DNA from: Halorientalis marina | GTDB taxonomy: Archaea; Halobacteriota; Halobacteria; Halobacteriales; Haloarculaceae | Assembly (NCBI RefSeq): GCF_023028345.1 | Contig: NZ_CP095487.1 | Span: 434,001-498,000, forward strand | DNA: 64,000 nt | Reading direction: 5' to 3' | Shown here: positions 31,204 to 35,427 of the stretch, one piece after another | Numbering within the stretch: position 1 is the first letter of the stretch | How the letters are laid out: every line of letters starts with the position of its first letter | Notes under the pieces: model-generated | Databases searched by the model: none | Told to the model about the DNA's origin: nothing | What the model saw: the letters and a program-made list of their open reading frames with translations, nothing else | Made by a program: the position numbers and the translations under genes

Positions 31204-31276
31204 GGGCGGCTAGTTCAGCGGACAGAACGCCTGGTTCCGGACCAGATGGTCGGGGGTTCAAATCCCTCGCCGCCCG
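31204..31276 (+). tRNA. tRNA-Arg (CCG anticodon)
   Basis: A 73-nt cloverleaf folds with acceptor arms GGGCGGC/GCCGCCC, a D stem GTTC/GAAC, an anticodon loop TTCCGGA giving anticodon CCG (reads CGG, Arg), a TTCAAAT T-loop, and discriminator G. The top pair of the anticodon stem (27:43) is a C-A mismatch. No intron is present. The last 23 nt plus the next base are copied downstream, which marks this tRNA as an integration target. Confidence 0.93.
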
Positions 31277-31277
31277 T
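31254..31277 (+). repeat. Attachment-site core within tRNA-Arg 3' end
   Basis: The T-arm and acceptor 3' strand, from GGGTTCAAATCC to the base after the discriminator, recur exactly at 31368-31391. A shorter part (CCCTCGCCGCCCGT) recurs at 32374 and 33714. This is how tRNA-targeting integrases leave direct repeats; the identification as att is inference. Confidence 0.7.
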
Positions 31278-31499
31278 GCAACAAACCGCTGAGCGTAGCG
31301 AAGCGGTGCAGTGAACCGGCAGCGAGGATTTGAACCACGCGAGACGAACGCAGTGAGTCTCGCAATCGGGTTCAAATCCCTCGCCGCCCGTCGACGGATT
31401 TTCGCCGGAAAATGGGGGCATTGAGTGGCGATACGGTAGATTCACCGTTCTCATTTCTCATTCCCTTTCGTTCAGCAATCGAACGATTCCCAGAGTCCG
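31278..31499 (+). repeat. Second tRNA-Arg tail copy (31368-31411) and hairpins
   Basis: This non-coding stretch contains hairpins ACCGCT/AGCGGT (31286-31308) and GCGAGAC/GTCTCGC. It holds a reverse-oriented T-arm-like GGATTTGAACC, and then the second direct copy of the tRNA tail at 31368-31391. That copy is extended by a GTCGACGG...TTTTCGCCGG flank to 31411, which recurs at 32374-32407. Nothing coding is seen up to the toxin gene stop at 31500. Confidence 0.65.
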
Positions 31500-31850
31500 T
31501 CAAACATCGAATTCTTCTTGCAGGGCATCGACGGCTTCCGCTACCCGCTCTCGTCGAAGCCGTCCCTGCCAGCGGTCGATGTCGTCGTGAGTGATCGACT
31601 GGACGCCCCACGGCACGATTCTGCTATCGTCCGGTGTTCCACCTTGAACCCAGTCGTCGGGGTCGATCTCGATGAGGCCGTCGTGCCAGGATTTCGTCGT
31701 GAGCGTCAGCGCGATGTACTGCTCGCCGTGGAACGGCCGACCCTCGTGGTTCGAGACGACTAGCCACGGCCGCGCGGCGGTCGTGCCTTTGAACGGGTCA
31801 GCGCCGAAGACGACGTCACCGGGCTCGAAGATCGGTTCGTCCTCGCTCAC
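31500..31850 (-). CDS. MazF/PemK-like toxin
   Basis: This 116-residue protein has the small beta-barrel PemK/MazF pattern: FEPGDVVFGADPF and ARPWLVVSN near the N-terminus, then YIALTLTTKSWH, and a C-terminal helix. In the family these are mRNA interferases that cut single-stranded RNA. The GTG start at 31850 overlaps the stop of the upstream HTH gene by 4 bp (GTGA), the usual coupling of an antitoxin-toxin operon. It lies inside the tRNA-bounded module 31392-32373. Confidence 0.75.
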   Translation of the reverse strand: MSEDEPIFEPGDVVFGADPFKGTTAARPWLVVSNHEGRPFHGEQYIALTLTTKSWHDGLIEIDPDDWVQGGTPDDSRIVPWGVQSITHDDIDRWQGRLRRERVAEAVDALQEEFDV

Positions 31851-32221
31851 TGCTCGTTCCCCTGCTGACTCGGATGGGGTTCCTCGGGCGCGTGTGTCGC
31901 CCACTCGTCGCCGTCCTCCGCGCCGAGTTGTTCGTTGAACAGCGCTGTCGCACGACTGTACCCGTCGTAGGACTGCAACCGCTCCTCGTTCTCGGTGATC
32001 GCCCAGTAGGCGGCCTTGTGTTCCACGAGATCACGGGCCTTCAACCGGGAGAGGGCCGTGCTCACGGTCCCGCTGTCGAGGTCGGTCTGGCGTGCGATTT
32101 CGGCGGCCTTGAACGCCCGGTCGCTGTTCGCGCCGAGGAAGCCGAGCACCTGGTCCGTCGCCGAGAGGTCGGCCAGTTCCTCCTCGGATGCGCTCTCGAA
32201 CGTGTCCCGGTCGATCGACAT
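31847..32221 (-). CDS. Winged-helix DNA-binding protein, candidate antitoxin
   Basis: This 124-residue protein contains a MarR/IclR-like winged helix (DQVLGFLGANSDRAFKAAEI ... LDSGTVSTALSRLKARDLVE, about residues 22-67). A C-terminal acidic tail could wrap the MazF-like toxin. It is coupled to that toxin by a 4-bp overlap. The ATG at 32221 is chosen because an AT-rich promoter element lies 21-31 bp upstream. A wHTH antitoxin with a MazF toxin is unlike the classic AbrB-type MazE, so the pairing is inferred from context. Confidence 0.7.
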   Translation of the reverse strand: MSIDRDTFESASEEELADLSATDQVLGFLGANSDRAFKAAEIARQTDLDSGTVSTALSRLKARDLVEHKAAYWAITENEERLQSYDGYSRATALFNEQLGAEDGDEWATHAPEEPHPSQQGNEQ

Positions 32222-32241
32222 GCGTGTAAGTAGTGAAAGTA

Positions 32242-32252
32242 ATGTTATAACC
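32242..32252 (-). promoter_or_regulatory. Promoter of the HTH/MazF operon
   Basis: On the minus strand GGTTATAACAT reads as a TATA element 21-31 bp before the ATG at 32221, consistent with a leaderless transcript. TTATAA is palindromic and could also be bound by the HTH protein as autoregulation, which is inference. Confidence 0.55.
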
Positions 32253-32317
32253 GTTCGCACTGATCCTCCGTATCACTGGTTCTTCGCTCGGCACCGGAAC
32301 TGTCCGTGCTGAAGTAG

Positions 32318-32407
32318 CCGTAATCGGCCCAGAGACGCGCTCAAATGGGATTCGTTCAGCAGGTGAACGCACGCCCTCGCCGCCCGTCGACGGGTTTTCG
32401 CCGGAAA
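32318..32407 (+). repeat. Third tRNA-tail repeat with 75-bp extended homology
   Basis: CCCTCGCCGCCCGT at 32374, with flank to 32407, matches 31378-31411 with one mismatch over 34 bp. Separately, 32318-32392 matches 33658-33732 over 75 bp with roughly ten mismatches, sharing GAGACGCGCTC, AATGGGATTCG and TGAACGCACGCCCTCGCC. Thus it shares its right side with the repeat to its left and its left side with the repeat to its right, as expected for stacked elements. The rest of 32408-32540 shows no coding frame. Confidence 0.75.
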
Positions 32408-32572
32408 CTAAGTGATTCAGGGTCTGTTTGTGGATATTCTGAACTCACCTATCGTCTTCCTTTCGTTCGATTGTCGAACGATTCCGTTTATCCAGTGTCT
32501 CGTCTCGCGACGTGTCACACTCGACCCGATACTGCCGAGGTATTTACCGACACGAGTCGTATCCGTGTCGTG

Positions 32573-33460
32573 ATGGAGCGCGTCGTCCACTACCACTATC
32601 CCTACGCAGAAAATTTCTCGCTCACGTATAGCTCCGCATCCGCCAGCGAGATTCTGGCTCGTCGTAACGAGGCGGACGACGCGACGAAGCTCATCGGCTA
32701 ACCGTTCGAGACGCCGGTCTACGTTCTCTACGAGAGTGAGACGGAAATTCAGAACGCGAGTGACGTGGAGTACGATAGAGACTGGCTCCGCGATCGAATC
32801 ACCGAACTGCCGCGTGCCGGGCAAGTCGTCGCCTTCCGGTTAGTGGAGTTACTCGAAGCGGCCGTGGACGTCCGTGACGACGACGAATTCCGTCTCTACA
32901 AGGACTTCGAGCCGGAGAAAATCAGGCAGGCACTCGATCACGTCTCGTGGGGCACTCCGCTGCCGGAGGTCGCTGGCGATCTCATGTCGAACCTCATCCT
33001 CCGGCACTCGCTCCCGAACGCGAACCACCGGACTGCGATTGCGATGCTCCAGTTCTGCATCGAGAGCGTCGTGGCGGATTTCGAGATGCCGCGGACCCAC
33101 CTGGATGACGACACATGGAAGGAGTGGGTCGATCCGTACATCGTCGACTCAAAGCGTCTCATCACCGTTCGCCGGAACAACGTCCGGTTCCAACGACTCG
33201 AAGACCTCGGTGTCGATCTCGTCGAACGGAAGGACGGGATTCGGATCCGCCTCACTGACTTCGAGCTGGATATGCACTGGCAGGAGGCGCTGTCGACGTA
33301 CGCCAGTCGTCACGAGGAACACTGCACAGCGTTCGCTCGCTCAGTGCTCGAACAGACGGATCGACCGGAACTCGTCGAGCGCTCGGGACCGACGAAACGG
33401 GAATTCGTTGACTATCTAGAAACCGGACTCGTCGAACGGGACTTCAGAGAACTGTTTTGA
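32573..33460 (+). pseudogene. Fic/Doc-like protein gene interrupted by an in-frame TAA
   Basis: Reading from the ATG at 32573, the frame runs 42 codons, meets TAA at 32699-32701, and then continues without another stop to 33460. The downstream part holds HSLPNANHRTA (about codons 145-155), which resembles the Fic/Doc active-site loop HxFx(D/N)(G/A)N(G/K)R, with NANHR as in Doc's NANKR. Fic proteins transfer AMP or, in Doc, phosphate to targets. A TATA-like GTATTTACC lies about 32 bp before the ATG and a GACACG/CGTGTC inverted repeat just after it. A GTG at 32765 could still yield a 231-residue protein with the motif. Sequencing error or true decay cannot be separated here. Confidence 0.65.
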
Positions 33461-33565
33461 TCAGTCGCGAAGCTCCGCGACCGACTGGCCGACCTCGCGA
33501 ACGTGCTCGCTCCGTTCCAGGTCGAGTTCCTCGGCGAGATAATCGACTGTCTCTTCGAGGCTCAT
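33461..33565 (-). CDS. Tiny ORF convergent with the Fic-like gene
   Basis: A 34-residue acidic peptide (MSLEETVDYLAEELDLERS...) could be made from the ATG at 33565. It looks helical and amphipathic. Its TGA stop abuts the TGA of the Fic-like gene (TGATCA at 33458-33463). Small acidic proteins beside Fic/Doc toxins are often antitoxins, but no known antitoxin motif is evident, so this is only a candidate. Confidence 0.45.
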   Translation of the reverse strand: MSLEETVDYLAEELDLERSEHVREVGQSVAELRD

Positions 33566-33657
33566 ACCGAAACGAAGTCCGTCGAGCGGTATAAGCCTGC
33601 TGTTAGTGAGGGTGTCCTCGTGCCTGAACCGCAGTTACCCGGACGAGATTGAAACGT

Positions 33658-33732
33658 CCGTAATCAGCTGCGAGACGCGCTCCAATGGGATTCGCTCGGT
33701 CACTGAACGCACGCCCTCGCCGCCCGTCGACG
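33658..33732 (+). repeat. Fourth tRNA-tail repeat, right boundary of the accessory stack
   Basis: This 75-bp sequence matches 32318-32392 and ends in the tRNA-derived CCCTCGCCGCCCGTCGACG. Beyond 33732 the sequence returns to conserved core genes, so it looks like the distal attachment remnant. No integrase gene is found between the tRNA and this point. Confidence 0.7.
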
Positions 33733-33848
33733 CCACTCCTGCGCTATTCGGACTTTAGAAGCGCGGTCGAGGCGGACCGATACGGAACCACCGGTCCGAC
33801 AGCGGCAGGAACTCGAGCGAACCCTCCCGGGAAACTCCGCGCCCTCAC

Positions 33849-35180: not shown

Positions 35181-35427
35181 CGGCGGGGCTGGAGGCCACG
35201 GCTACTCGATTGTCGTGTGTTCATGCCCCTACGTCTCGCTCCACCTACTAAAACCATTTAATGAAGGCCCGAAGCGAACTGATTGCTGTGACCACTCGGC
35301 CGGGGGCGTGCCGTACTCACGGTCCTGTAATCGAGGGTCGTGCGGTCTCGGCGGGTTCGAAGGCTCGGCCACTGTTCGCGCGGCGGAAGACGAGTCCCCG
35401 GTCCGTCGCCGAGCGGCCGGCCGCCAC

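Follow-up and report, generated by a model that had tools for sequence, protein, structure and literature searches.

A convergent Phd-Doc pair has been tested experimentally in Sulfolobales, where SiL_0730/SiL_0731 have viral antitoxin homologues (arCOG10132) (PMC11065993). The haloarchaeal locus analysed here resembles this pair in being archaeal, in placing a small candidate antitoxin gene convergent with a gene of the Doc-family type, and in the occurrence of the antitoxin alone on other elements, which in Sulfolobales include viruses (PMC11065993). The two differ in the toxin, which in Sulfolobales has the regular loop HxFx(D/E)(A/G)N(G/K)R whereas the haloarchaeal protein of 295 aa has the loop HxLPNANHRT and a conserved N-terminal region. 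They also differ in antitoxin size, at least 39 residues in Sulfolobales (the key Asp is residue 39) against 34 aa for the haloarchaeal candidate.

Phd-Doc of bacteriophage P1 (TIGR01550) shares with the haloarchaeal protein the Doc-type loop with its His, Asn-Ala-Asn and Arg-Thr, and the profile gives a sub-threshold match over this loop. The P1 antitoxin is encoded upstream in a single operon and has a DNA-binding domain, whereas the haloarchaeal genes converge and the small partner leaves no room for a domain of that kind. Phd binds Doc through its C-terminal part and keeps it off, and this segment can bind Doc alone (Doc-Phd C-terminal domain complex 3dd7). In the Fic modules VbhT/VbhA and EcFicT/EcFicA (PMC3667792, PMC5033356) a small protein likewise partners a Fic-superfamily enzyme, inhibiting it there and putatively here. 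Class I Fic antitoxins carry an (S/T)xxxE(G/N) motif and are encoded upstream of the toxin gene (PMC3667792), whereas the haloarchaeal partner is downstream, antisense and, throughout its 34-aa family, without the motif. No description of such a module from haloarchaea was found in the open-licence literature.

The window, by which we mean the whole 64,000-nt stretch of DNA analysed, has a G+C content of 60-74% and carries on its plus strand a broken copy of a Doc-like putative toxin gene (32573..33460). Its translation gives 42 codons, a TAA at 32699-32701 (codon 43 of 295), 252 open codons and a TGA at 33458-33460, with no other stop. The original prediction had placed both sides of the TAA in one frame and reported HSLPNANHRTA downstream of it. 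Both observations were confirmed, the Fic-type loop occupying codons 145-155. A whole-family profile matched the window copy from position 1 to 286 with one TAA inside, and the two halves, when joined, aligned without gaps to 295-aa relatives, indicating that the joined frame is not due to chance. At least 36 unbroken close relatives begin where the window has ATG 32573, and they continue past codon 43. The N-terminal part is conserved in full-length homologues even at 28-40% identity, with M1, H8, S16 and Y53 invariant, and thus belongs to the long protein. A leaderless promoter element (32543..32572, plus strand) has TTTA at -30 from the ATG, and 21 of 26 relatives have it at the same place.

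When the 231 residues downstream served as the query, family members turned up in 157 of the 392 genomes sampled from the order, and 47 loci were named. Nearly all relatives of the long gene are in Halobacteria, as were all 21 family matches in a sample of the phylum. Many copies are plasmid-borne, among them an intact relative with its 34-aa partner on Haloarcula marismortui pNG600, and the copies that were inspected carry the RefSeq label 'hypothetical protein'. Scans of viral contigs and of a phage collection returned no relatives. Family members share the loop H-x-L-P-N-A-N-H-R-T, in which x can be S, A, P or G and L-P-N-A-N-H-R is almost invariant. Set against HxFx(D/E)(A/G)N(G/K)R, the H, A, N and R and their spacing are present, with L for F, N for D/E and H for G/K in nearly all members. 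N also occupies the D/E position in a solved Doc protein (NANKRTA). The S and L that the original prediction noted in place of P and F are truly present in the window copy but are a family signature, not a lesion.

Profile searches gave weak but concordant matches to Doc, all of them below curated cut-offs. NCBIfam TIGR01550 hit 20 of a set of 25 diverse members, the strongest at 4.4e-5 and with the match spanning the loop, and PHROG 577 'Doc-like toxin' gave 4.5e-5 and 1.1e-4. Against the PDB, the top hit of the family profile was a Death-on-curing protein, with the loop inside the alignment (E 0.0057), and a profile-profile comparison with collected archaeal Doc proteins gave E 0.00037 at a probability of 36%. 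Pfam has no family for the long protein; Fic (PF02661) was matched in 4 of 25 members, with a best E of 0.093, and a Tudor_Coilin match over 19 residues (E 0.002-0.05) was set aside as chance. Full-length structure prediction produced a moderate model (pLDDT 72.5) with the loop between two helices. Fold searches with this model returned no significant match, the weak ones including the Doc chain 3dd7_C (probability 0.14), and a prediction of the domain alone (pLDDT 46) was discarded. Together with the loop motif, the profile matches point to a place for the long protein with Doc, in support of the predicted Fic/Doc-like gene of an unusual branch. Elsewhere in the same genome, G000:C1:2245018-2245206 matches the Doc family with a score that exceeds the NCBIfam cut-off.

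Just beyond the region covered by the original prediction, and absent from it, lies an intact convergent gene for a 34-aa microprotein, the candidate antitoxin (33565..33461, minus strand). It runs from ATG 33565 to a TGA at 33463-33461 that abuts the TGA of the long gene tail to tail (TGATCA), and encodes MSLEETVDYLAEELDLERSEHVREVGQSVAELRD. Its leaderless promoter (33566..33600, minus strand) has TTATACC about 30 nt upstream of the ATG, and the TTTATACC element is conserved with leaderless spacing upstream of the microprotein gene in most relatives. The microprotein is identical in most close relatives, whose long proteins are about 22% different; DNA differences are nearly all synonymous and pN/pS is about 0.1. 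The microprotein gene is under strong purifying selection.

A convergent 34-aa ORF is present at 46 of the 47 close loci, the exception retaining a long-gene fragment only. At 60 distant loci (28-56% identity) the microprotein was recognised in 56, with exactly 34 codons in 55, and one further distant locus has a version with a different start codon. Under strict geometry it was found at 51 of the 60 distant loci, compared with 0.16 expected from shuffles. The genes are thus adjacent, the partner small and the pairing consistent, as is looked for in type II toxin-antitoxin systems. Distances of the long protein and the microprotein co-vary (r 0.91), which is what partners would show, though linkage by itself would also favour it. 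Pfam gave no match above cut-off for the microprotein. With 34 residues in all it lacks the Phd layout of an N-terminal DNA-binding domain plus a C-terminal segment, and could correspond to the toxin-binding segment of Phd only. Among plasmid records, 41 of 42 have no annotated feature under the microprotein match, a count that is approximate because of gaps in the PLSDB gene table. In Halobacterium sp. DL1 the microprotein coordinates do carry an annotated CDS.

The two genes are not lost evenly. The microprotein is intact beside broken long genes in the window and at six other loci (L059, L060, L066, L259, L268 and L264), beside C-terminal relics of the long gene at five (L163-L165, L168 and L169) and without any long gene in 15 further loci. 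Among about 107 loci, an unbroken long gene lacked the microprotein only at L148, or also at L150 should its 37-aa ORF be disregarded. The microprotein thus outlasts the long gene and an intact long gene alone is very rare, the order of loss that one would expect for a toxin and its antidote. We consider it probable that the locus is a convergent Doc-type toxin-antitoxin module with a putative 34-aa antitoxin, and that this genome has retained the antitoxin after decay of the toxin.

The strongest competing explanation, though an unlikely one, is a functional pair other than a toxin and antitoxin. The long protein would then be a regulatory modifying enzyme and the microprotein its activator or substrate peptide, or the microprotein would be an independent, travelling small regulator. 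That many intact long genes persist in genomes would agree with this, as would the missing class I Fic antitoxin motif. So would the occurrence of the microprotein without the long gene: one orphan branch adjoins a plasmid transcription factor B (TFB) gene in three records, and this conserved context suggests that the microprotein may do something independent of the long gene. Against it stand the loss order, as an antidote predicts, and the precedent of the convergent, experimentally tested Phd-Doc pair in Sulfolobales (PMC11065993). A divergent toxin beside the orphans was considered and rejected, the neighbouring proteins of about 290 aa having no Fic-type loop. On the plasmids inspected, the orphans are found just downstream of the TFB gene. 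Orphan 34-aa copies at L151 (G000:C3:7438-7539), L238, L239 and L240 are 76-82% identical, and the window's own genome also has an orphan, on contig C3. PadR was likewise rejected as the antitoxin; it is upstream in 30 of 44 close loci and absent from the others and from the window. Where present, for example at L079 and L032, the PadR-like gene immediately precedes the toxin-like gene and shares its strand, and at L170 PadR and the microprotein are both present with the toxin-like gene between them missing.

Within the preferred toxin-antitoxin reading, the TAA at 32699-32701 is best read as a recent private nonsense mutation, or as a sequencing error, and not as recoding. Codon 43 is a sense codon in each of the 35 coding sequences that were aligned with the window, and its residue is invariant, and a congener has an intact long-gene copy. 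Besides the stop, the window gene has three deviations at otherwise invariant sites, and its dN/dS against relatives is about 0.1. Since the copy is otherwise like a working gene (in its dN/dS and retained promoter), the mutation would be recent, or else a sequencing error. Other lineages have single stops at codons 31, 63, 71, 191, 210 and 213 of the long gene; because these fall at other codons, the TAA appears private. An apparent clustering of stops in the N-terminal quarter (31, 43, 63 and 71 in the close group) was abandoned when a wider search added 191, 210, 213 and 246. The broken copy in itself is ordinary toxin decay.

An error of sequencing or assembly at the TAA, with the long gene intact in the organism, seems rather improbable to us. 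The stop is a single lesion, and the dN/dS of the copy and its three other deviations resemble those of a working gene; clean single nonsense changes nevertheless recur in the family, so that real decay is common. Of the readings offered by the original prediction, recent inactivation is accordingly the probable one, with sequencing error as the alternative.

Its suggestion of a restart at GTG 32765, here extended to a later GTG, fared poorly, and a working shorter protein made in this way is very unlikely. The frame downstream of GTG 32765, Fic-type loop included, is indeed open for 231 codons. No relative begins there, however, and no homologue starting at the GTG without the N-terminal part was found; codon 65 is ATC, ATT, GTC or GTT in 33 of 34 relatives compared. 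There is neither a TATA-like element 25-30 nt upstream nor an obvious ribosome site, and the region that such a start would omit is conserved throughout the family.

Read-through or recoding of the TAA, also proposed originally, is scarcely credible: the frame is intact on both sides, but neither position nor kind of the stop is conserved, relatives have a sense codon there, no Rfam element was found at the site, and TAA is not known to be recoded in archaea.

The gene pair lies within a cassette. Direct repeats of 75 nt, 85% identical to each other, lie at 32318..32392 and 33658..33732 (plus strand), and each ends in the 3'-end sequence of tRNA-Arg. The probable insertion target is the tRNA-Arg (CCG) gene at 31204..31276 (plus strand), and a further copy of its 3' end lies at 31368-31391. 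Across 31204-33733 we located tRNA 3'-end repeats at 31254-31277, 31368-31411, 32374-32407 and 33714-33732. These repeats separate tandem cassettes beside tRNA-Arg (CCG), each with a toxin-like pair, an arrangement that suggests serial insertion at one tRNA site. There was no integrase among the ORFs of the window. In the neighbouring cassette (31500-32260, minus strand) a MarR-like wHTH gene overlaps a PemK/MazF-like gene, the regulator first. The latter matches Pfam PemK at E 1e-4, just under the cut-off, and the two genes are a candidate second toxin-antitoxin-like pair. DNA at 35300-35422, between two other genes, resembles a segment of the MarR-like gene (32045-32174) with 75% similarity and is perhaps a relic of another cassette.

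We propose that a cassette of two convergent genes, belonging to a haloarchaeal Doc-type toxin-antitoxin family, was inserted beside the tRNA-Arg gene. Its long gene would encode a 295-aa Fic/Doc-superfamily enzyme with an extra N-terminal region. In its intact form this enzyme would modify some target in the cell and arrest growth; both the toxicity and the chemistry are inferred. The 34-aa protein from the opposite strand, having no DNA-binding domain, would bind the enzyme directly and keep it off. By analogy with Asp39 of the Sulfolobales antitoxin, its invariant C-terminal A30-x-L32-x-D34 might contact the loop. In this genome a nonsense mutation at codon 43 would recently have broken the toxin gene, leaving the antitoxin gene intact.

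A broader proposal has about an even chance of being right. It holds that there is a haloarchaea-wide Doc-type family with a stand-alone antitoxin that nearly always has exactly 34 residues, lacking a DNA-binding domain and encoded tail to tail with the toxin, and that plasmids also carry the antitoxin alone beside a TFB gene, where it may guard against a rival element's toxin. Should this hold, a toxin-antitoxin family present in about 40% of the haloarchaeal genomes sampled would have escaped notice, its toxin being too divergent for Pfam and its antitoxin too short for gene callers. Convergent Doc modules would then not be confined to Sulfolobales, and a natural inhibitor of 34 residues would provide a minimal model for how Fic/Doc enzymes are held off.
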